From an uncultured Bacteroidales bacterium (GTDB lineage: Bacteria; Bacteroidota; Bacteroidia; Bacteroidales; Bacteroidaceae), in assembly GCA_902779845.1 (NCBI GenBank), contig CACZCZ010000011.1, forward strand, positions 1-64,000: 64,000 nucleotides of DNA, written 5' to 3'. Position numbers and translations under genes: made by a program. This document shows, one piece after another, positions 29,321-42,328 of the stretch. A model generated the notes under the pieces. It did not search any database and was not told the origin of the DNA. It worked only from the letters and a program-made list of their open reading frames with translations. Each line of letters begins with the position of its first letter. Positions within the stretch are counted from its first letter, which is position 1.

Positions 29321-32300
29321 CTATTTGTCTTTTTTGAGAGAAAAGGCGGTCGTGGAGTCGTCGCGTCTGACTGTTATCTTTTTTCCACGATGGATATAGA
29401 CGCCAGGCTGCGTAGGCTTGTGCATCAGCTTAATGCCTTGCAGCGTCCACCAGTCATCACAGTCCTCATCATTGTCAATGGCCAGTCCTCCGACACCAAC
29501 AGAGGGATTGAGGAGGTCGATGACATAGGGTTCCCACGATGTGCCGATGTTGGCATCGCTGACGAACTGCTGCGTGTCATCGATGTCGATGACCTCTCCG
29601 TCGATGTATGTGCGCAGTATGATGGGCTGGCCGGCTCCCTCTCCTGCGATGACGAGGTAGTAGAGGCCGTTGCTGTTGGCGCGTGTAGCACCTCGGCACT
29701 CATCACCCACGAAGGCGGCCACCTCGGCGGTGTCAACCACGGCGGCGCCCTCCTTCAGCTGGATGGCCATCGTCATATTATTGGGATAGAGGTATTTATC
29801 GACAGGAGTAAAGATCTGCAGCGCTTCGGGAGCGCGACGGGGAGCAGCCTTGCGTGTCGATGCCGACGGGGCATCGGGATATACGAACGACTTCGCCGTG
29901 GCGTCGGTGCTGTAGTACATGTAGCCATGACCGCCCTCCAGGGCTTGCAGGCTGCCCTCCCAGCCGTAGGGGCCGTAGATGGACATGCCCGTCTGCGACT
30001 TCACGATGTCGCCCTTCTGCGGGTTGGCAGCTGCCAGTGCCTCACCGACAGTCATGGTTGCCAGCGGTGTGTAGGCAATCCAGTTCCAGCCCTTGTTCAG
30101 CGTGACCGGCATATCCTTTCCTGGCAGCTGGGTGCCTGAGACGGCGATCTGTGCAGGCAGCTCGCCACTCCTTGGCAGCGGCTCCACTTTCAGCTTATAC
30201 ATCTCATTGACTCTCGGGACGAGCGTTCCATTCCACTGGGCGCCATTGTAATCGCTCCAAGTATCACGGTTCTTGATGAGCAGTTTCCAGTCGGCCAGGC
30301 TACTGAAGATAAGATCAAGGTATGAAGACTTCGGCTCCACGCCAAAGGCCATCCAGTTCCAGTTCTCATGGACAGGGATGAGCTGCTCCACATGGTTGCT
30401 CTTCGTCCAGATGGCGGGCTGGTCGAAGTTGCCTATCATCTGGTCTTGGCCGAAGACGATGCTGGCGGCTTTGCCGTCAACCGCTATCTGCGCATCGGTG
30501 TAGGCCACGCCCTTTGAGGCGTCCCAGATGCGGAAGCTCACCTCCTTGCCACGGTCGTATGCTTTGGCATCGATGCCATAGATGTTCAACTGGACGTAGG
30601 CAGCTCCGCGCACCTTATCGGGCGAAGCTACGCCTCGGCATTCATTGCCTATGAAGGCCGCCACCATGCTCTCGGCGTTCTCCATGAGGATGCCGTTGAT
30701 ATACACCTGTCCCACGATGCTCATGTGGTGGTCATACTTCGTCGGGTCAACAGCCCAGTCGGGCTTCTGTCCGCTCACCTTCATGACGATGCGCAGGGGC
30801 TCCAGCACTTCCTTGTTACCCTGTAAGCCGATGGTGATGTCGTAGTTGCCTACGGCCACTAACGGGTCAACACGGAAGCGCAGCGTCTTCGTCTTCATGG
30901 GACTCACGTCGTCGTTTCGTTCGCTATCGACCAGCGAGAGCCAATGCGGCATATTATATAAGGAATAGTACTCAATGGTGCCGCCCTTGTTCTCGATGTT
31001 CACGTCGAAGGTGTATTCATCGCCGTACTGCTTGATGATGTTCACCGAGTCCTTTGTCCACCTCAGTGTGTTCTGCTGCACGTAGGCCGTCCACTTGATA
31101 GGCTCGGACGAATTGCCGTGCATGTCGCGGATGTCGGCCAGGGTAATGTTGAGTGTCGTTCCCTCGATGTCGCGCTGGCTGATGCCGGCGCCCGTCAGGT
31201 TGATGACCACCTTGCGTTCAGAAGCCACCGGCGAGGCAATGAGCAGCGTCTCATAGGGGGCATTCTTCAGGGGTGGTGCTTGCTGTTCCTTGGAATAGGA
31301 GGAGAGGACGACCAACTGTGGCAGAGAATCGCTAGGTGAGGAAAGGGGTGCCATATTCTCCAGCGTAAACACCTTGCTGTTGAGGGTACTTCCTGGCTTC
31401 CTCTTCTCGAGAGGATAGTAGGCCACGAGTCCGCGTGAATACACATCTGCGGTGTCGATGCAGTTATACATGTTCGACAGCAAGCGGTTCTCGCTGAGCG
31501 CAGCCTTCCAGATGCGCACCTCGTCGATGCAGTCAATATTCTTGCCCAACTTCATCTTTGCGCCCTCCATGGGTGGAACGTCAGCCTCGGCAATGACTGC
31601 CGTGCGCTGTCCGTCGTAGTAGAAGCTGGCAGCCTGTCCACGCACCACGTTCAGTGCCAGGTGGTGCCATCCAGAGTATTCTTGAACCGAGGGGGACGAA
31701 TAGAGCTGCTTGGTGGCTTCGCCGTAGTCGAGCATCAGGTTATGTAATGCGTCGTAATAGAGACGCAGTCGGTCGCTCAACGTGGTTCCTGTCTCGAAGA
31801 CCGTCTGTTCACCCGTGCGTTCGGCATTGTTTTCCACCCAAAGTTCAATGGCGTAGCTTTCGCCTCGGCTGGTGTTGATTCTCGAGATGTCAGCCTCTGC
31901 TCCCTGCTCGTCACGCATGTATATCGTGTAGTTGGGATTGTCTATCTCCCAATAGTCGAACACCTCGAAGTCGTGGGTGTGGCGCATATCGGCGGCCACG
32001 GAGCCATGGCCTTCGTTCATAGGCCAGTAGTTCACCAGCCCATAGACGTAGTTGTCCTTCGCCTCATATTTAGCCGAAGCAGCATCATGCACGTCACGAT
32101 AGACGTTAAACAGACTCAGGTCGTGCATATAAGCCCATGAATCGCCCAGATAGAGGTGGTTGTCGTCAGTATAGACGATGGCCTGAGTGGCATCCGGATC
32201 CACCGTCTGGTCTTCGAACAGCATCTCCGAAGTGGTGTCATACTGGGTCAATGCCGAGAACGTCATATCTGCCGACTTATAACTCATGACCACATAGGCC

Positions 32301-35300
32301 CATGTCTTCTTGGGTATCGACTTTTTACTCACGAAAGTGGAACCGCCAATGGTAGCCACGATGTGGCCCTCGGCATCGACAGACAGCATAAATGGAGTGT
32401 TGCCCTTGCCTAACTGCAGCAGGGAGCCTTCAGACTCCCATTTGAACCAGAAGTCTATCGAGAAATCGCCATTGAGGAAGATGGGGTTCACCGTGCGCTG
32501 GTCTTCTGTCCAGAGCAGCTTGCTCACTTCGTGGTTGACGGACTGATGATTCAGCTTCGCTGTGACAATGACGTTCTTGTCGCCCACATAGCCTGGCACG
32601 ATGTCCTCGTTGAACTCTACGCTCAGGTCCTCGCCGTAGTTCAGGATGCCGTCCGACGGCGTCGGCGTGGTAAGGGCACGGGGGCTGACGTTGTCCTTCA
32701 CCACCGTCACCTCCTCGCTATACACCGTTGCGGCATCATTGGGACTGGTGCCGTAGGGCGTTGTCGTGAAGGCACGGAAGGTGTAGGTGCCTTGAGGGAA
32801 GAAGTTGTCGTTAGACATGTCGAAGTCGTAGCGAATGACACCGGCATCGGGCAGCATGGTGTAGCTGCTGTTGATGGTGTCTTTCGGATTGGTGACATAG
32901 GTGTGGATGGTGTTCCACTGCGTGTTACCAGCATAACGGTACTGCACGCCTACGTATCTCAGGTTCTTGAACTGTCGGTTGAAATTCTCCAGTTTCAGCT
33001 TCAGCTGGCCCTTGTTTCGGCCCAGCACCTCCTGGTTGAGCACAGGCTCATCGACAGCGAGGTCAACGGGCGATGACGAGGGCATGAAGTGGGCATTCAG
33101 CGTCACCTCGTCGTAGATTTTCAGGGGTTGATGTTGCGAAGCGAAGCGCAGCTTGATGCCTTCATAGTCCAGAATGCTCTCGTCCGTCTGGTTGATGGTG
33201 ATAATCTTCTTGATGGTCTCACCTCGCGGCAGATAGACAGGACGTCCGTTCATGGGATAGCCATCCATGAAAATCTGCAAGCCCGCAGTATCGCTCTTCT
33301 CTACATAGAAAAGGTCGAAGCTGAATTCCTTCCCCTGATTGGCAGTGCCCAGATTGGTACAGGTCAGCACGAGATTCACCTTCTGTCCTGAGGGGATGTC
33401 GGTGACTGTGAGGTTCTTTCCCGGAGTTCCGTCGCCCAGACTGATTTGCAGGTTAGGCTGTTCCATCTGCACGGTGGCATTGCCTAGCGGAGTGCCAGGA
33501 TTGTACTGGTGTGTCACCTCTGCTCCTTCGTATGGGTTATAGGTCTGGCCGCCGTAGATGCTGAAGAAGTCTCCGTAGCCGTACTTATCAGACTCATATT
33601 TGTTGATGGAGAGGTCGGTATCTCGGTTCCCGTCCTCAACGTGATAGGTCCATTCGGTGATTTTGCCTTCGCTGTAGGTATAACTGTCATTATATTGTCT
33701 GCCATTCTCAGTATCAATAGTAAGTCCAAACCCAATTTTTGTAACATCCTTTTTATGAGCACCGCTCTGTATGGATCCTATGCCGCCCAGCTTCCAGTTG
33801 GTGAAATGAGAATGCTCATACTTCACGTCAAGCGAATCGGTCTTATCACTATATTCGTAGGTACTGCCGCCGTCAATGGAGAAATTCACATATTTCTTTT
33901 TGTTTTTCATGCACTCCAGCTTGTCCTTCTCGTTGTCAGCGATGACTGATTCCCACTGCTCAATCTGGTTGTTATACCAGATGACACTGTCTGTTTCCTC
34001 TTTGTCTATTTTCGATAAATCTTCAGGATGTATATAGCTGTAACCCGATATGCCGTAATTGGGATTATCGGGACTTAACCAAGTCAGATAAACCGAGTGG
34101 TCGCTGTTGTTCACATACGTCTGAGCATAGTTTGAGTCGGGTACCTGTGTGAGGAACCGGTTGCGCAGGTCTTTCCACTTGGGAATCATCACCTTCTCCA
34201 GCTCATACTGGCTGTATTTGAAAGATGTGGTCAGTTCAGACCCCACAGAGATGCAATCCTCTACGTCGAGCACCAACGGTCCGTCTTTCAATTTTTTGGT
34301 GATGCAGACATTGCGTGAGTTGCCAAAGAGCAGATTCGATGCTACTCCCACATAGACATCGCCGGCACTACCCACGTAGGGATAGGCACCGCCCGTTGAT
34401 ATGGTCTCCGTAAAGGAAGAATTGTAGGTATAGCCGTCTTTGTGGCCGACCTCCCATTCTGCATGAAAACCCTCTTTCGATACAACCTCAGCACTGCTGG
34501 AAGAAATAATCATGAGTCCAGCGCCTGAAACCACTTCGCCACCAAGGCCCCAGTATTGTTCAAAAACAAGTTTCTCATCACCATACGCTGCATCAACTGT
34601 AGCTTTCTGACGGACTTTATAATCTCCTGTTTTCAATGTCGTCCTTGATTTTGCACCTGGGGGATCGCGCAGCACGAAGTGGATGTGGTCGGGGCCTTTG
34701 GTGACGAAATTGTTACCTTCTGGCAGTCCGCCGAGGATTACGGCATCAAATTCGGCAGGCACATAGATACGGCCGTTACGATTCATCGTGACGGTGAAGT
34801 GGCGCGTATAAGGGCTTACAATGTTAGGTTGTCCAACCCTCCATCTGTATTCTACTTTACCGTCAGCTCCCAGCGTCACCTCGTCGTCTTTCATTTCATA
34901 GATCATGCCTGGCTGATACTCAGAGTCAGGATCCACTTGTTTATAGACCACCGACTGCTTGCTGCTCATCTCGTTCTTGATGATAACGGACTGATTGGTC
35001 AAGGGGATGTCTTCTGTCAATATCTTCCCTCTCTTGCTGCCGTCGTAGTTGACGTAGGATTCGTAAGCAGCAATTGTGAAGACGGTGGAGTCGCCCTTCT
35101 CGTAGATAGGATAGCCGAACCGGTAGGTGATGCTGCCGTCCTCCTCTTGTGTCCAGATGTCATCGATGTCAATCGTTTCCGTCAGGAGGCTGTTGGAGAT
35201 TTCATAGTCAGCCAAATAAGAGTGGCCGAAGGCACCCTCGGGATTGGCCGTCTCCTGTACCTTCACCTGTGGAGCAGCAAAATGGGAACGGATGAACTTG

Positions 35301-38300
35301 GTATTGTATGTATAGTATTTCCACTGACTGTCCCCTCCGGGAAGCTCCACCTTCAACGAGTCCTTAAGCTCGCGTGAGGGGCTGGATAAGTCCAGGTCGG
35401 GCAGGGAGAGGAACTCAATGTCGGGATTGCTGTCGATGGTGATACTCTTGGTGATGTATTTCAGCGGCGGCACCATGGCCGAGAACTCACCTGTCAGCGA
35501 GTCGGTGCGGATGTAGATATACTTTGCATCATAGCCGGTGCCTGTCCAGCTGCGGCTGGCAATGCTGGTGGTGTCGCTCTCCCACGTGCGGTTGGTGGTG
35601 GCAGAGGTAATGAGGTCGTCCTGACAGTTGAAGGAGAACGATTCGTTGTTCAGCTTCAGCGTGATGGTGGCCATGCCGATGTTGTTTGTCGAAGCGCCGA
35701 AGCCCACGGCCAGCGTGTCGCTCTTTTCACCGCCACCCACGCGACCCACGAGGTTGACAAGGGTGGAGTCGGTAAAGTTGTGCGTCACGGCACGGTCAAA
35801 GTTAAAGTAGCCGGCGGCGGGGAATCGTCCGCCGTCAACCATCTTGTGCCCCTCGAGCGAGGCCTCCACAAAGTGTTCTCCAATGGGGACGGAAACGAGG
35901 TAATGACCATTGGCATCGGTTTGGATGAGTTTACCCTCTTTCGACTGGACGATGCCATCGACACTTATCATTAAGCCTTCGGCGGGGATGTTGGTGCCGG
36001 CATAGTAAATGTAGCCCTCCATGGGGAAGGACGAGACGTCCTCGAAGTCGATGTTGTTGCCTGTCAGACTGGTGGGGCTGACGAACAGGGAGCGGTTGTT
36101 GGGCGAGAACTGATGGATGCCCAAATCGGGCACCACTTTATAGTTGGTACCGCCCTGTTGGAACGGAATGCCCCGGATGAGGTAGTCGCCTTCGTCATCG
36201 GTCTCACCGTAGAGTTTCAGCAGATCGGGCACAACGGCGCTTGGCAGGGCATTGGCCCCCACCACGGCATGGTTCAGCTGGTAGAGACCGTTCTTGCAGG
36301 CCACATCGAACATGTAGTCGCGCACATTGATTCCCTCGTCCATAGGCCAGTAGAGAATAAGACCTTTCTCTGTACCACCGAGGATGCGGGTGTAGTTCCG
36401 CTCTATCTCCTGACGGGTGAGGGCGCGTTCCCACAGACGGACATCATCGACGAAGCCCGAGAAAGCAGTTCCTATTTTGTGGTTGCTACCGCCGATGCTC
36501 AGCGTGTAGGGTTCGCCCTCCAAGGCGTCCCATACCTCCGATTGTGTTCTAAGCGTCATAGAGCGGAGTGTGTCATTGCCCACATAGAAAGTCCAGTTCG
36601 ATTTACCATCATAAACGACAGCCACATGCGAGAACTGGTCGGCGCTAAGTGTAAGATCCGACAATAAGGTTGTTGACGGAATGATGGGATGGGTCACATC
36701 GTTGACGTAGAGCTGGTAATTGATGCCGTCATCTGACTGGAGGGCAAGCTCTATGGAGTTGGTCAACTTCAGCAGACTTTGCAGGACGGCACCTTCGCTG
36801 CTTTGGGGCTTTACCCACAGTTGCAGCGTATGAGGATGCTGGCCAGTGAGGGCGCCTTTGATGGTCTCGGAGTTGCCTTTCCACGACAGACCTACACCCT
36901 CACCATCGATGAAGCGGGACAGGAACTGCGGGGTGTCGCTTGACTCGTCGGCTGACGACTTCACCAGATTTACCTGCACACCACTGACCGACGTTCCTGA
37001 ACCGTAGGCGATGTGACCTGATATGATTCCACGTGCTGACGAGAAGCCTGGGGCCGTCTTCTGGTCGGTCATCTGCATCACCTGCTCGTCGCATCGCAGC
37101 CCAAAGGCTTGCACCGTGTATTCATAATAGCTGCCGGCCATGACGCGGTCGTCAGTATATTCGTATTCCGATTTCGTGCCGCTGATGGTATTCGTGAGCA
37201 ACACCCAGTCTTCGTCATTCGTCGAACCGAGCGGACGACGCAAGACGCTGAACCAAGTATCGTCGCTGCCGCGCTGCTCAACCTTCCAGGTCACGACGAC
37301 ATGGTCGGGATGTACACCGGTGGTAGCAGTGACTTCCTTGATGTAGGTGCTGCCAGGCAGATTGGCTGATAGGGTGTCGGAGAAGAATTCCTGACCGTTG
37401 ACCTCAGTACGGATGCGATAGACATAGAAGTCACAGGGAGAGAGTGCGCCGCCCTCTTCGCCGTTGTCTTCGAATGTGGCTACAGAGTTTTTCTTTTCAA
37501 CGGGCAGTGTGGTGAGCGTCTTCCATGTGGTTTCGCCCAGCCTGCGCTTGTCGATGCGCCACTCGCAGCCGTTTTTCTGCACGCTGTACTCCCACGACAG
37601 CTTGATGCCGCTCTCGAAGGTGCGGTCCTGAGTCAGACGGATGGGCACATCGAGCAGCGTGGAAATGGTAGCCTCCTCATAGAGGTCGTTGCTGTTGTGC
37701 GGACCGGGGCGACGCGGGATTTGCGTCAGTTTCTCGGCATAAGCATCCACCAGGATATCAGGCAGGAACACCACGCGATAGACGTAGTCGTGACCGTAGT
37801 CCACGCCGTTGTCTGTCAGCTGGAGGTTGGAGCTGTTGCCCTTGATAGAGCCCACCAAATGATAGCCCTCGTCGAGGTCGGCCCCCTTGTCGTAGCGCAT
37901 CACATACCAGCGGCCGTCCAACTTACAGTCCACCGTCTTGGTCCGATAATCCTCCTCATCATAGTAGCTGGCGGAATTCCGCTTAGTCCACTTCACAAGG
38001 ACCTTCTGATTCCATTTGTCAAACTCGGTCGTCACCGTCTCAGGCCGGGTATAGGGGATGACATTAACAGGCGAGAGAGGTGCGTAATAAAGCATATCAT
38101 AGCCGATACAGTCTTTCAAGGTGAAGTAACAACGGGTGTTGGCTCGATAAAAGGATGTAAACGGATAAATGTCAGGCCAATAAGACTTCAGTGTTTCGTA
38201 CATCCAGGTCACATCTACTGAACTGGAAGTCGTCGTGACAGTCATAGGCCCATCCAGATCCCACAGTTTAATCTTATGCCAAGTTGCGTGAGAATTAGAA

Positions 38301-39049
38301 TAAGAATAAGTAATGGGGAGCTCTATTTCGTAGGCTCGAAGATCCCAACGACTGTTTTTGTTTAGGGATGCCTTGAAGACAATGTTGCCCTCGGGAGTCC
38401 ATTCGGTAAACTGCAGTTGCGGGAACACGTTTTTCCAGGATGAAGTGTCAAGGGGCTTCTCATACTGGTAGTCGTCAAATACAACGGCGTTCTTATAGAC
38501 AAGTCTGTTCTTGAAATAGATAGCTTTCAACCCTTTATCAAGGAAGTAGTCCTGGGGCTGGAATTTGACTGTCATATAGCCATAATTGTCGAGCTGCGAC
38601 TTCATCTCAAAGAATGCCTCGCCGTGAGCTTCAAAGCTATAAGTCAGGTTCTTGGCCACACCGCTGTTCTTGGTGTAAGTCGCTATGCGAACAGTCTTGT
38701 CGTCTCCTAAGACAACATATATTTCACCATCCACCTTCACATTCTTCAGCTCCTTGTCGCCTTTCTGCATCAGGTTCTGGAAGATGATACGCATCTTAAA
38801 CTCATAGTCGAAGTTCGCATTCGTGGCATCAAAAGAGCCGTCGACCGACTCAAAGGACATCATGTCCGTGTATGAGACGGTCGTATTGCCATAGGTGAAA
38901 TTCTGCTGCGTGTAGCGGAAATCATACGTTCCGCCGCCAGCGTCGCTCCGGCCCTTTACGGTATAATTCCACGCCCATGTCGGCGAGATGCAGGTGAATA
39001 GCACCGCCAGTGCCACGGTCAGTGCCCGTAGTAGATGTATTGGTTTCAT
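29321..39049 (-). CDS. giant multidomain surface protein with LamG-like domains
   Basis: 3242 residues. Signal peptide RALTVALAVLFTCISPTWA. Fibronectin-III-like domains at about 340-665. A carboxypeptidase-regulatory-like domain opens at about 673 (GIISGHIAYGSGTSVSGVQV) and seems interrupted by a LamG/concanavalin-like domain (about 715-913, ending FVDDVRLWERALTRQEI and ILYWPMDEG); its second half resumes at TDDEGDYLIRGIPF. Another such domain is at about 1010-1070 (MEGYIYYAGTNIPAEGLMIS). Two more LamG domains lie near 2193-2346 and 2400-2548. The C-terminus WWTLQGIKLMHKPTQPGVYI resembles secretion-type sorting tails. Probable cell-surface adhesin or matrix protein, third gene of an operon with a small peptide and a fimbrillin-like lipoprotein. 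Confidence 0.8.
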   Translation of the reverse strand: MKPIHLLRALTVALAVLFTCISPTWAWNYTVKGRSDAGGGTYDFRYTQQNFTYGNTTVSYTDMMSFESVDGSFDATNANFDYEFKMRIIFQNLMQKGDKELKNVKVDGEIYVVLGDDKTVRIATYTKNSGVAKNLTYSFEAHGEAFFEMKSQLDNYGYMTVKFQPQDYFLDKGLKAIYFKNRLVYKNAVVFDDYQYEKPLDTSSWKNVFPQLQFTEWTPEGNIVFKASLNKNSRWDLRAYEIELPITYSYSNSHATWHKIKLWDLDGPMTVTTTSSSVDVTWMYETLKSYWPDIYPFTSFYRANTRCYFTLKDCIGYDMLYYAPLSPVNVIPYTRPETVTTEFDKWNQKVLVKWTKRNSASYYDEEDYRTKTVDCKLDGRWYVMRYDKGADLDEGYHLVGSIKGNSSNLQLTDNGVDYGHDYVYRVVFLPDILVDAYAEKLTQIPRRPGPHNSNDLYEEATISTLLDVPIRLTQDRTFESGIKLSWEYSVQKNGCEWRIDKRRLGETTWKTLTTLPVEKKNSVATFEDNGEEGGALSPCDFYVYRIRTEVNGQEFFSDTLSANLPGSTYIKEVTATTGVHPDHVVVTWKVEQRGSDDTWFSVLRRPLGSTNDEDWVLLTNTISGTKSEYEYTDDRVMAGSYYEYTVQAFGLRCDEQVMQMTDQKTAPGFSSARGIISGHIAYGSGTSVSGVQVNLVKSSADESSDTPQFLSRFIDGEGVGLSWKGNSETIKGALTGQHPHTLQLWVKPQSSEGAVLQSLLKLTNSIELALQSDDGINYQLYVNDVTHPIIPSTTLLSDLTLSADQFSHVAVVYDGKSNWTFYVGNDTLRSMTLRTQSEVWDALEGEPYTLSIGGSNHKIGTAFSGFVDDVRLWERALTRQEIERNYTRILGGTEKGLILYWPMDEGINVRDYMFDVACKNGLYQLNHAVVGANALPSAVVPDLLKLYGETDDEGDYLIRGIPFQQGGTNYKVVPDLGIHQFSPNNRSLFVSPTSLTGNNIDFEDVSSFPMEGYIYYAGTNIPAEGLMISVDGIVQSKEGKLIQTDANGHYLVSVPIGEHFVEASLEGHKMVDGGRFPAAGYFNFDRAVTHNFTDSTLVNLVGRVGGGEKSDTLAVGFGASTNNIGMATITLKLNNESFSFNCQDDLITSATTNRTWESDTTSIASRSWTGTGYDAKYIYIRTDSLTGEFSAMVPPLKYITKSITIDSNPDIEFLSLPDLDLSSPSRELKDSLKVELPGGDSQWKYYTYNTKFIRSHFAAPQVKVQETANPEGAFGHSYLADYEISNSLLTETIDIDDIWTQEEDGSITYRFGYPIYEKGDSTVFTIAAYESYVNYDGSKRGKILTEDIPLTNQSVIIKNEMSSKQSVVYKQVDPDSEYQPGMIYEMKDDEVTLGADGKVEYRWRVGQPNIVSPYTRHFTVTMNRNGRIYVPAEFDAVILGGLPEGNNFVTKGPDHIHFVLRDPPGAKSRTTLKTGDYKVRQKATVDAAYGDEKLVFEQYWGLGGEVVSGAGLMIISSSSAEVVSKEGFHAEWEVGHKDGYTYNSSFTETISTGGAYPYVGSAGDVYVGVASNLLFGNSRNVCITKKLKDGPLVLDVEDCISVGSELTTSFKYSQYELEKVMIPKWKDLRNRFLTQVPDSNYAQTYVNNSDHSVYLTWLSPDNPNYGISGYSYIHPEDLSKIDKEETDSVIWYNNQIEQWESVIADNEKDKLECMKNKKKYVNFSIDGGSTYEYSDKTDSLDVKYEHSHFTNWKLGGIGSIQSGAHKKDVTKIGFGLTIDTENGRQYNDSYTYSEGKITEWTYHVEDGNRDTDLSINKYESDKYGYGDFFSIYGGQTYNPYEGAEVTHQYNPGTPLGNATVQMEQPNLQISLGDGTPGKNLTVTDIPSGQKVNLVLTCTNLGTANQGKEFSFDLFYVEKSDTAGLQIFMDGYPMNGRPVYLPRGETIKKIITINQTDESILDYEGIKLRFASQHQPLKIYDEVTLNAHFMPSSSPVDLAVDEPVLNQEVLGRNKGQLKLKLENFNRQFKNLRYVGVQYRYAGNTQWNTIHTYVTNPKDTINSSYTMLPDAGVIRYDFDMSNDNFFPQGTYTFRAFTTTPYGTSPNDAATVYSEEVTVVKDNVSPRALTTPTPSDGILNYGEDLSVEFNEDIVPGYVGDKNVIVTAKLNHQSVNHEVSKLLWTEDQRTVNPIFLNGDFSIDFWFKWESEGSLLQLGKGNTPFMLSVDAEGHIVATIGGSTFVSKKSIPKKTWAYVVMSYKSADMTFSALTQYDTTSEMLFEDQTVDPDATQAIVYTDDNHLYLGDSWAYMHDLSLFNVYRDVHDAASAKYEAKDNYVYGLVNYWPMNEGHGSVAADMRHTHDFEVFDYWEIDNPNYTIYMRDEQGAEADISRINTSRGESYAIELWVENNAERTGEQTVFETGTTLSDRLRLYYDALHNLMLDYGEATKQLYSSPSVQEYSGWHHLALNVVRGQAASFYYDGQRTAVIAEADVPPMEGAKMKLGKNIDCIDEVRIWKAALSENRLLSNMYNCIDTADVYSRGLVAYYPLEKRKPGSTLNSKVFTLENMAPLSSPSDSLPQLVVLSSYSKEQQAPPLKNAPYETLLIASPVASERKVVINLTGAGISQRDIEGTTLNITLADIRDMHGNSSEPIKWTAYVQQNTLRWTKDSVNIIKQYGDEYTFDVNIENKGGTIEYYSLYNMPHWLSLVDSERNDDVSPMKTKTLRFRVDPLVAVGNYDITIGLQGNKEVLEPLRIVMKVSGQKPDWAVDPTKYDHHMSIVGQVYINGILMENAESMVAAFIGNECRGVASPDKVRGAAYVQLNIYGIDAKAYDRGKEVSFRIWDASKGVAYTDAQIAVDGKAASIVFGQDQMIGNFDQPAIWTKSNHVEQLIPVHENWNWMAFGVEPKSSYLDLIFSSLADWKLLIKNRDTWSDYNGAQWNGTLVPRVNEMYKLKVEPLPRSGELPAQIAVSGTQLPGKDMPVTLNKGWNWIAYTPLATMTVGEALAAANPQKGDIVKSQTGMSIYGPYGWEGSLQALEGGHGYMYYSTDATAKSFVYPDAPSASTRKAAPRRAPEALQIFTPVDKYLYPNNMTMAIQLKEGAAVVDTAEVAAFVGDECRGATRANSNGLYYLVIAGEGAGQPIILRTYIDGEVIDIDDTQQFVSDANIGTSWEPYVIDLLNPSVGVGGLAIDNDEDCDDWWTLQGIKLMHKPTQPGVYIHRGKKITVRRDDSTTAFSLKKDK

Positions 39050-40277: not shown

Positions 40278-40478
40278 GAAATATTCCTTTATTTAATTGG
40301 TATCGTGCGCGCGAAAAATCGTTAAATGAGAAATTATTTGACGATTATGGCTAAAAATAACAGCATCACGTCACGCCTATGCGCCCAACGGCAGCCCAAT
40401 TCGCGACGCTCTCATCGGTTCTTCAATACGACAGAACACCGTATCTTAGTGGCTGACAAAAAATTTTTTTTCAAAACA

Positions 40479-40547
40479 GTTAGCACATATCACTGGAGAG
40501 GGGTATGTCGGACATTTCAGAGGTGAATTCGTGATATGTGCTAACTA
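40479..40547. repeat. 16-bp perfect inverted repeat
   Basis: AGTTAGCACATATCAC at 40479-40494 and its complement at 40532-40547, with a 37-nt loop. Flanked by T- and A-rich runs. No ORF. Confidence 0.85.
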
Positions 40548-40563
40548 AATAAAAAAAACTTTT

Positions 40564-40619
40564 GCGAGAAACCCTACGAACCCTCCGCAATGATGAGGAG
40601 GGTTCGTAGGGTTTCTCGC
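40564..40619. repeat. 23-bp perfect hairpin with flanking A and T runs
   Basis: Arms 40564-40586 and 40597-40619 (GCGAGAAACCCTACGAACCC and on) with a 10-nt loop. A T-run follows on the plus strand (40625-40631) and another on the minus strand, so it could stop transcription both ways. It lies directly before the 22-nt phased array. Confidence 0.9.
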
Positions 40620-40631
40620 GAAACTTTTTTT

Positions 40632-41071
40632 GAGGAGACTGAGGGCCATGCGAGACACTATAGAGGGTAAGGCGAGACACTATAGAGGGTAAGGCAAGAC
40701 ACTATAGAGGGTTGACACATGCACCATGGTGTGTTGGACGGATCACCATGGTGGTCCACTCGAAAGGACCAGCCCTTCAGCTCATAAGGACAAGACCTTC
40801 TGCGCGTAAGGACTGGTCCTTCTGGCGTGTTCCACTGGTGGAACTCGCTGTAAGAGCAAGCCCTTTCGGCCACAAGCCCATGCTCTTCGTGCCATAAGCC
40901 CTTGCTCTTCTTGTCATAAGCCCTTGCTCTTATTGTTTTTGCCACCAGTGGCAAAAGGTTTTCTCACTGGTGAGAAAATGTTTTATCACCAGTGAGAAAA
41001 CCTCTTGACTTCTTAGCCATGGGCTTCCCCACGTGGTTGGGAGAGTGAACCACGATGGCAGCCATTCACTG
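40632..41071. repeat. 22-nt phased array of covarying palindromes (about 20 units)
   Basis: The sequence divides into consecutive 22-nt units starting at 40632. The clearest are 40654 to 41005 (16 units). In units 5-17 the first 14 nt form a dyad centred between positions 7 and 8, always with C6 and G9. The arms differ by subfamily but stay largely complementary: GACACTATAG (three units), CACCATGGTG (two), AAGGAC..GTCCTT (three), TTCCAC..GTGGAA (one), AAGCCC..GCTCTT (three), TGCCAC..GTGGCA, TCTCAC..GTGAGA, TATCAC..GTGAGA. The last 8 nt are more variable. The period is not a multiple of three, so it is not a protein repeat. The last units (41006 on) decay towards an AraC remnant. Confidence 0.85.
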
Positions 41072-41134
41072 CTCGGCATACTGCATGGGGGTCATGCCGG
41101 TGTTCTTCTTGAACTTCTTCTGGGCGGTCGAATT
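41066..41134 (-). pseudogene. 3' fragment of an AraC-family regulator gene
   Basis: The minus strand reads STAQKKFKKNTGMTPMQYAE and a stop at 41066-41068. KKFKKxTGMTPMxY is the end of the second HTH of AraC/XylS proteins. Upstream the frame is closed at once, so only about 20 codons remain. The stop touches the end of the 22-nt array. Confidence 0.7.
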
Positions 41135-41345
41135 TTAGTCATTTTGCACATTTACCACATCAGATGAGCAATTATTCAGCAGTCAAACCCCAAATGTAAC
41201 TATTACGTATAACAAAGATATATGGCACGAAAATTAAGGTGTAGTATTATTGCAAAATGCGCATATAAAGATAGCAAAAAAGAGTCTTTTGACCACATAA
41301 AAGCAGTTTTCTCTCAAAAAGTTTGGTCATTCCAAGAAAAAGCTG

Positions 41346-41353
41346 TACCTTTG
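41346..41353 (+). promoter_or_regulatory. -7 box of the Abi_2 locus
   Basis: TACCTTTG followed by CACC, about 70 nt before the ATG at 41423. It makes the in-frame ATG at 41222 implausible. Confidence 0.7.
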
Positions 41354-41359
41354 CACCAA

Positions 41360-41412
41360 CAGAACCCGCCACGCTTCCCGAAGACCAGCGAACCAGGGCG
41401 GGGCGTTTTTTT
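41360..41412 (+). ncRNA. candidate leader RNA / attenuator of the Abi_2 gene
   Basis: The transcript from the -7 box would carry a GC-rich hairpin CCCGCC (41365-41370) / GGCGGG (41397-41402), with an inner CGCT / AGCG stem. It is followed by seven T (41406-41412) and ends 10 nt before the ATG. This is a terminator-like structure inside a short leader. I recall reports of noncoding RNAs next to AbiF-type HEPN proteins, but the assignment here is inference. Confidence 0.4.
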
Positions 41413-41422
41413 ATATAGGGCA

Positions 41423-42328
41423 ATGAGATATAACAAACAACCCATTTCAATCAACGACCAGATAGCTATTCTGAAAGGACGTGGACTCATCTTTTCCGAT
41501 GAGCAAAAAGCCCAGACAGTTTTGGAGAATATAAGCTATTTCCGTCTCGCTGGATATTGGCGTACAATGGAACAAAACAGTTCAACCCACTTGTTCCGTA
41601 CTGGCAGTCGTTTTGAAGATGTCGTAGCCCGCTACAATTTTGATTCAGAACTGAAGACACTCATCTTTGCTGCCATTCAGCAAATAGAAATTTCAGTCAG
41701 AACAAGAATCATTCATTTTTTCTCCTTGGCTCATGGAGCATTCTGGTTCCTTGATGACACGTTAGCGGAAGATGAAGATTTGTTCAATGAAAATCTTAGT
41801 TATCTGCGCACTGAACTTAGCCGTTCCCACGACGAATTCATTGCAGAACATTTCAGGAAATATGATGAGCCAGACATGCCTCCTGCTTGGAAAACGCTTG
41901 AAGTAGCTTCGTTCGGTACATTGTCAAAGCTCTACAAGAACATGAATGACAACGCTGTGAAGAAGCAGGTTGCCCGTAGTTTCAATATCCCACAGCACAA
42001 ATGTCTTCAAAGTTGGCTTGCAACGTTGACTATCGTGCGCAACACTTGTGCCCATCACGCAAGACTTTGGAATGCTCATTTCTCGATGGTTCCAAGGACG
42101 AATGAGCGGATGAGAGGCAACTGGATAGCAAACCGCCATTTTTCTTCTGACAAACTCTATCCAAGTCTCTGTTGCATTGCCTACTGGCTCTACAGCATCA
42201 ATCCTCAGAACACGTTTGTTCAGGACTTCAAATCTCTTCTGACAAAATATCCAAGTGTGCAACCTCCCATGATGGGCTTTCCCCGTGGATGGGAGACGGA
42301 ACCGCTTTGGAGTACCCCAATACATTAG
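41423..42328 (+). CDS. Abi_2 (AbiD/AbiF-like) HEPN protein
   Basis: 301 residues. N-terminal KQPISINDQIAILKGRGLIF and LENISYFRLAGYWRTM are standard Abi_2 motifs. Two R-x4-H motifs are visible, RTRIIH at 93-98 and RNTCAH at 206-211 (within RNTCAHHARLWN), the catalytic pattern of HEPN ribonucleases. The family acts in phage abortive infection. The gene is AT-richer than the housekeeping genes and sits beside a palindrome array and an AraC remnant, so it looks acquired. A weak hairpin ACGCCCC / GGGGTGT (42346-42366) follows the stop. Confidence 0.85.
   Translation: MRYNKQPISINDQIAILKGRGLIFSDEQKAQTVLENISYFRLAGYWRTMEQNSSTHLFRTGSRFEDVVARYNFDSELKTLIFAAIQQIEISVRTRIIHFFSLAHGAFWFLDDTLAEDEDLFNENLSYLRTELSRSHDEFIAEHFRKYDEPDMPPAWKTLEVASFGTLSKLYKNMNDNAVKKQVARSFNIPQHKCLQSWLATLTIVRNTCAHHARLWNAHFSMVPRTNERMRGNWIANRHFSSDKLYPSLCCIAYWLYSINPQNTFVQDFKSLLTKYPSVQPPMMGFPRGWETEPLWSTPIH

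Follow-up and report, generated by a model that had tools for sequence, protein, structure and literature searches.

The question raised by this locus is what kind of element, and what kind of copying or selection, can hold short palindromes at an exact spacing of 22 nt while the letters of the palindromes change. The locus lies in a window of 64,000 nt, the whole stretch of DNA that was analysed, at the start of a contig from an uncultured Bacteroidales bacterium (the host genome, G000). The original prediction held that cutting the sequence every 22 nt from 40632 places a dyad at one phase in each clear unit, and this was reproduced, with a mean pairing of 4.68/7 at one phase of 22 and of 0.95-2.79 at the remaining phases. 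Autocorrelation, which had been suggested as a check on the periodicity, gave lag 22 as the best lag in 40632-41071 (identity 0.557), followed by lags 44, 66 and 110, with lags 21 and 23 at about 0.27; the best separate block elsewhere in the window (at 221) has a lag-22 identity of 0.366. Tandem Repeats Finder reported four separate 22-nt arrays within the block. The extent first given to the block, 40632-41071, was borne out for an array proper at 40654-41005, although the units at 40654-40719 have only 4/7 pairs and those from 41006 on are doubtful. This array comprises 16 units, three weakly symmetric copies followed by 13 (40720-41005) all of which, as predicted, have C at position 6 and G at position 9. 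Five units (at 40742, 40808, 40830, 40940 and 40962) keep six of seven pairs, which is consistent with the earlier description of several such units, and the differing arm sequences listed at that time are real and represent unit types that occur across the genome. The features of the array, none of which is assigned a strand, are as follows.

40654..41005: whole array, 16 x 22 nt (14-nt dyad and 8-nt spacer), recognised by phase, pairing and homologous arrays elsewhere in the genome
40654..40719: three units of type G (GACACTA/TAGAGGG), 4/7 pairs, a type that recurs at other places
40720..40763: units of types F (TGCACCA/TGGTGTG) and C (ATCACCA/TGGTGGT)
40764..40829: three units of type a (AAGGAC..)
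40830..40851: one unit of type B (TTCCACT/GGTGGAA)
40852..40939: four units of type A (AAGAGC.. and AAGCCC..)
40940..40961: one unit of type E (TGCCACC/AGTGGCA), which is also the type seen in the host proA
40962..41005: two units of type D (TCTCACT/GGTGAGA and TATCACC/AGTGAGA)

The window block is one copy of a dispersed repeat family. A BLAST search of the host genome with 40600-41100 as the query gave 79 matches, which were grouped by eye into 39 places, and a motif-free score identified arrays at 35 of the 39 fetched loci (37 arrays in total). The units fall into about 7 to 10 types, depending on how finely they are split, and many copies show the same order of types, with an A block followed by E and then D. 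The window array and an array at C18:6144-6473 (L009) carry nearly the same series of units on opposite strands with D and E exchanged. Neighbouring units are the most alike (identity 0.582, 0.486 and 0.381 at distances 1, 2 and 3). The 110-nt flanks of 38 arrays, read by eye, have no common ends, and a REP-like hairpin was seen in 6 of the 38. At a further locus (L201, ~2050-2110) a second copy of the 3' end of folE stands immediately ahead of the array. It is similar to an A-type unit, which could mean that the array grew from, or landed on, sequence of this kind.

Covariation of the arms, as originally envisaged, is present between unit types but is barely above chance within a type. Over 173 distinct dyads 4.919 of 7 pairs form, compared with 2.812±0.111 when the right arms are shuffled (reached by 0 of 1000 shuffles), whereas shuffling the right arms within type gives 4.811±0.060, with 38 of 1000 shuffles reaching the observed value. 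In type A, position 5/10 is C or G on either side almost independently. Single-sided changes are scarcely compensated within a type, and replacement may therefore contribute more than paired point changes to the turnover of the arms. Across 294 units the pair 6/9 is complementary in 86% and the central pair in 38%, and a Y-N-N-R centre is present in 288 of these units and in 55 of 71 units from other species. The central two bases are unpaired and the bases that flank them are usually a pyrimidine and a purine, as in hairpins with a two-base loop. In DNA hairpins pairing across a loop of two bases is possible between a pyrimidine and a purine, and the Y-N-N-R centres are therefore a pattern that single-stranded DNA hairpins would leave.

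Similar blocks in related genomes had been anticipated, and three YCAC-NN-GTGR palindromes at exact 22-nt spacing were found in 11 of 37 genomes of the same genus (host included); the pattern was absent from 24 genomes of other families and a reversed control pattern gave no match. The arms of these same-genus arrays vary by species and the spacing stays at 22 nt. BLAST with the window array gave matches in 25 of 139 genus genomes, again with the host included. Contig-start stretches of seven other species (633,813 bases) were taken regardless of location, six of the seven species having been chosen as known array carriers and the places within them not having been chosen. Here the commonest distances between dyads of at least 6/7 pairs were 44 (10), 22 (8) and 110 (6), with a median of 1. 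Five arrays with unlike arms lie in these stretches, in three of the seven species (G157, G003 and G065), and none was found in the stretches of G131 (21 kb), G027 (129 kb), G078 (120 kb) and G064 (81 kb). An earlier motif-free scan of 146 loci had given 26 dyad pairs at distance 22, which come mainly from RAYT loci (5) and from proA/cobB loci (19), genes that were picked because arrays had already been seen there; at this distance no peak is present when the 58 ftsZ/folE loci are taken by themselves. Among the matches listed in a pattern scan of named records (80 loci of 113 stretches), most are from metagenome-assembled genomes labelled Bacteroidaceae, Prevotellaceae or Bacteroidales, many of them from the rumen, and those in Bacteroides pyogenes and Dysgonamonadaceae are each confined to one contig. 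Sunxiuqinia dokdonensis, which is in culture, is also among the carriers listed. A universal period of 22 is not established by the twelve distant genomes because they were reached via a pattern that fixes both motif and spacing. The actinobacterium Nocardioides sp. J54 has scattered 22-nt arrays of GGCCACAGGTGACG-type units (L078, L080, L085, L087, L088 and L115), with 35 two-unit matches compared with 6 in the control. Carriage by phages was considered and rejected: three-unit YCACNNGTGR matches in viral contigs number 4 stretches at period 22 and 2, 23, 5 and 34 at periods 20, 21, 23 and 24, so that 22 is not special there, and the matches at 21 and 24 probably reflect coding repeats since both are multiples of three.

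The strongest evidence comes from arrays in frame inside proA and cobB, which occupy the same position in different species with arms that differ and yet pair. It had been argued from the period that a protein repeat was excluded; this is wrong in part, as three units make 66 nt, or 22 codons, and are read in frame in both genes. The proA of the host genome (L047; NF001221, 522.6 bits) contains such a three-unit array. A proA match was present in 107 of 139 genus genomes, from which the 30 best were fetched and 29 were readable, and seven of the latter carry the array (G000, G131, G157, G153, G065, G064 and G072). These seven have a 76-residue segment in common with the array at one offset and without gaps; in the other 22 the end of the segment was recognised in nine, at a length of 60-66 residues (65 in five). 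The arms are TGCCAC/GTGGCA in the host, TCCCAT/ATGGGA in G131 and G153 and TTCCAC/GTGGAA in G064, with mixtures in G157 and G065 and a decayed version in G072. Standard pairs, with G.U counted, fill 96.8% of 126 cells (18 pairs) compared with 86.0±1.7 when shuffled (0/500), changes on both sides are found in 7 pairs and 17 cells (4.2 and 6.0 when shuffled), and sliding the structures by 1-3 columns gives a pairing of 36-52%. With three outer pairs per dyad the figures are 89.4% and 76.0%. Watson-Crick pairs alone account for 112 of the 126 cells, with 10 G.U and 2 A.C on the sense strand. An unselected scan of registers placed 60 first (2.51), followed by 131 (2.37), 87, 109 and 120, and is less clean than that for cobB. 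A predicted ProA structure (mean pLDDT 77.0) is of low confidence in residues 281-300, where the block means are 58 and 52; this would fit a loop but proves little.

A cobB match was present in 67 of 139 genus genomes, and the 30 that were fetched gave 25 linkers with both anchors. Where present, the array has three units in frame and starts 74 nt after YLGLDF. Ten of the 25 linkers (G067, G097, G091, G118, G065, G157, G153, G064, G132 and G089) pass a threshold of 12/18 pairs, which the linker of G102 fails although it is equal in length to those of the array carriers. The arms at this site are as unlike as AAGACC/GGTCTT, TACCAC/GTGGTA, TTCAAC/GTCGCA and CACGTC/TACGTG, with A-type arms in G157 and G153 and wholly different arms in other species. 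In nine distinct rows Watson-Crick pairing is 80.2% (43.1±3.2 when shuffled) and changes on both sides occur in 18/18 pairs (0/1000 shuffles), figures which are inflated because the rows were selected by pairing. With no such selection, over 24 distinct linkers, the six best of 72 registers (74, 96, 52, 63, 85 and 107) all lie on one 11-nt lattice, the best having 3.0 of 6 pairs compared with 1.57±0.30. Another linker (L355, from G099) holds a different repeat, coding QLDKWTIEQLGKWIIPQLDKCTIK, and the cobB linker therefore seems tolerant of repeats generally.

The claim that pairing is conserved rather than sequence is upheld by the proA and cobB arms, and this suggests that the symmetry itself is what is copied or selected. 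An ordinary minisatellite of a once-palindromic unit, the symmetry of which would be a relic, could account for the likeness of neighbouring units and for unit numbers that vary. This explanation is very unlikely, however, given that arms which differ between species at orthologous proA and cobB sites still pair and that dyad arrays of period 22 with dissimilar arms occur in stretches of other genomes.

The arrays are best read as a DNA satellite that spreads within genomes and in which hairpin-templated copying maintains the symmetry, a reading to which a probability of about 0.45 may be given; the dyad-preserving copying process raised in the original prediction is a live explanation. Such a satellite would form a lattice of period 22, its dyad centres spaced every 11 nt, with symmetry and register preserved and the arm letters free to change. 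In single-stranded DNA, on the lagging strand or in a gap, each unit would fold into a hairpin with a stem of 6-9 bp and a loop of two bases. If a polymerase then switched template between the arms, it would rewrite one arm from the other (quasi-palindrome correction), so that a new letter would be either lost or fixed on both arms. Slippage would duplicate units, rarer long-range copying would found new arrays at the ends of genes and within protein linkers that tolerate them, and no host function would be required. The hairpins, the template switching and the route to new loci are the parts of this scheme that we infer. A more specific version is offered more tentatively. The arrays would be a selfish DNA lattice with mirror symmetry at 11-nt steps, instead of a sequence, as its heritable feature, kept by hairpin-templated copying, which spreads within genomes of the genus and enters genes in frame, its letters changing wholesale with the register intact. 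Correction of quasi-palindromes by template switching is a described type of mutation in yeast (PMC3820800, in the part of the article available). It likewise extends identity between the arms of inverted repeats, but what that part describes are mutations at reporter sites and not the upkeep of a dispersed tandem family.

Several observations bear on spread within genomes. Among YCAY..RTGR units the best match in the same genome is better than that in other genomes for 89 of 96 and worse for 2. A wider test (260 better and 16 worse of 294) is biased because the arrays of other genomes were found with a CAC..GTG pattern, and the restricted test is therefore relied on. Units seem to be copied within genomes, from types common to the genus. 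Two of the three host proA units are identical to a unit beside folE at 22/22 positions, which needs copying between loci and not copying internal to a hairpin alone. The same two differ by 6-7 positions from the corresponding unit of sister species and are within 1 position of a unit in the array of another species (L103), so that types are shared between species. This need for copying between loci and the near lack of compensation within a unit type count against the hairpin-templated model, as do the conserved C6 and G9, which represent some constraint on sequence.

This conserved pair, together with the fixed 22-nt spacing, could instead point to an array of protein-binding sites, in which dimers on each palindrome two helical turns apart would organise, insulate or regulate, and the arms would turn over with evolution of the binding specificity of one protein or of several paralogues. 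The location of the arrays, which lie mostly between genes, is in agreement with this: of 34 gaps with an array 14 are convergent, as against 7 of 49 control gaps taken from those loci (p 0.009, with genes taken as mechanical ORFs). A protein-binding array is nevertheless rather unlikely. It would have to accommodate about 7 to 10 types of arm in a single genome, a cobB site with A-type arms in two species and wholly different arms in others, a position 5/10 of type A that varies on each side almost independently, and arrays inside coding linkers. A gene for a co-occurring protein, the search for which had been proposed, did not emerge, since no gene family recurs beside arrays: among 85 flanking proteins no Pfam family is found in more than two. 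The symmetric DNA site of the original prediction is weakened as a site for a single protein, because arms turn over at one site. If a protein is responsible after all, it would be an unrecognised protein of rumen-type Bacteroidales.

The arrays are often at the 3' ends of genes, as would be expected of transcribed RNA hairpins acting as 3'-end stabilisers, terminators or sponge RNA. The balance of mispairs argues otherwise. Over four location classes G.U and A.C total 74:80 (p 0.69), with 25:38 on the sense strand of co-directional gaps, 36:29 in convergent gaps, 7:12 in divergent gaps and 6:1 in ORFs, so that the symmetry looks like a property of DNA and not of RNA. In proA alone the sense strand leans to G.U (10:2), as do the in-ORF arrays as a whole, but cobB (8:10) and the co-directional class do not. 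The array after ftsZ is preceded by a terminator-like hairpin of that gene's own. The window array matches no Rfam family at the gathering score, at which the window contains only two tRNAs, and below that score the hairpins match only microRNA models. The RNA hairpin that had been proposed is thus unsupported, and a function at the RNA level is highly improbable for these arrays.

Single sites were compared with those of the closest relative found (G065, FtsZ 96% identical). The relative has no array after ftsZ or folE and the host genome has one at each, but these are not clean empty sites because the intergenic DNA is unalignable and the gene after folE differs. Orthologous arrays differ in size, with 15 units at L009 and 13 at the corresponding locus of the relative (L232). 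A candidate in-gene array at a UvrD-like ORF (L072) was dropped: the ORF is a mechanical one that begins with GTG, the array spans its codons 1-23, and the true start of the gene probably lies after the array.

Immediately before the array the window contains a second palindromic feature.

40555..40631, no strand assigned: long, near-perfect REP-like hairpin (arm GGAGGGTTCGTAGGGTTT), RNA fold -53 kcal/mol, z -12.4

This hairpin resembles a REP doublet (REPIN) and is probably separate from the array. Its arm is also found just after a RAYT-like gene on C7 (L260 1222-2615). Eight RAYT-like genes, merged by hand, are present in the host genome (on C1, C2, C4, C5, C6, C7, C12 and C16), and their proteins represent an expansion in which conservation extends past the Y1_Tnp part into a long C-terminal region; RAYT matches were found in 89 of 139 genus genomes. 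RAYT-like Y1 (HUH) transposases might then mobilise the array units as REP-like elements, with one paralogue for each arm type. In agreement with this, an array directly follows one RAYT-like gene (C2:127220-128404), an array lies within ~400 nt of the REP-like hairpin at 7 of the 13 places where the genome has it (by our own grouping), and RAYT matches are present in 20 of 24 array genomes found by BLAST compared with 68 of 114 others (p 0.035, kinship ignored). We consider this unlikely all the same. Four of ten other array genomes found by pattern (G005, G008, G035 and G036) have no RAYT match, and an array is within ~1.5 kb of only one of the eight host genes and three of 29 fetched from relatives. 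The flanks of the C7 and C16 genes have their own hairpins, unlike array units, and those of the C1 and C16 genes have their own tandem repeats. REP tags are absent from the arrays: of the 294 units, 11 contain GTAG/CTAC and 9 contain CGTC/GACG. All matches to protein families score low (24.1 and 22.8 bits for PF01797, with a threshold of 23; 23-36 for NF047646, with a threshold of 80).

The arrays are best filed with the dispersed bacterial palindromic repeats, since their location is that of REP/BIME and Rickettsia palindromic elements (RPE), although they do not have the sequence features by which those families are defined. As far as the available text goes, REP, BIME and REPIN elements are likewise short, dispersed and clustered palindromes, mostly intergenic and sometimes in genes (PMC3733652), and a RAYT-like family is present in the array-bearing genus. 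Compared with what is given there, the arrays have no GTAG/CGTC tag and no conserved unit sequence, they keep a strict 22-nt tandem phase and their arms are replaced at orthologous sites. RPE likewise occur both between genes and in frame inside unrelated genes, and are described in the accessible part of PMC10969869 as ~150-bp elements forming sequence families with a conserved peptide, whereas the arrays have short tandem units, with arms and encoded peptides that differ at the same site. The BrickBuilt MITE of Porphyromonas gingivalis is also from the Bacteroidales and also a scattered intergenic minisatellite of similar period. The sections available of PMC4596501 report it only between genes, as a 23-nt direct repeat with one consensus, a leader and tail and IS5-like terminal repeats. 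Identity with BrickBuilt was rejected given the period of 22 and flanks that share no leader, tail or terminal repeat. A CRISPR array was rejected in view of 8-nt spacers and varied dyads, in keeping with the earlier judgement that CRISPR spacing does not fit, and no cas family is among 25 families listed for the 85 flanking proteins. No published description of such arrays was found among titles and abstract starts, in a search that had most subscription journals outside its coverage. Repeat families are normally recognised by sequence, and annotation based on sequence tends to overlook elements such as these in which symmetry and phase persist as the sequence changes. The proA and cobB copies provide a gap-free record of arm change between species, and make it testable whether mutational copying alone can keep palindromes without selection for a binding protein or RNA.

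Three further features lie near the array in the window.

29321-39049, - strand: very long ORF of 3242 aa
40478-40546, no strand assigned: inverted repeat AGTTAGCACATATCAC...GTGATATGTGCTAACT, its arms separated by a long loop, RNA fold z -5.25
41222-42328, + strand: gene for an Abi_2 family protein (PF07751, E 2e-55), AbiD/AbiF-like, with a start perhaps at 41424

Before the Abi_2 gene, at ~41339-41412, inspection by eye showed a promoter-like site and also a short hairpin that is rich in G+C and has a T run, and the stretch before the gene folds no better than shuffles (z -0.74). The AbiF of C. difficile is held by a small RNA according to the available part of PMC12373285; by analogy, a small RNA that would hold an Abi_2-type protein here is a lead only. 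The inverted repeat at 40478-40546 is perhaps a small insertion-type element.
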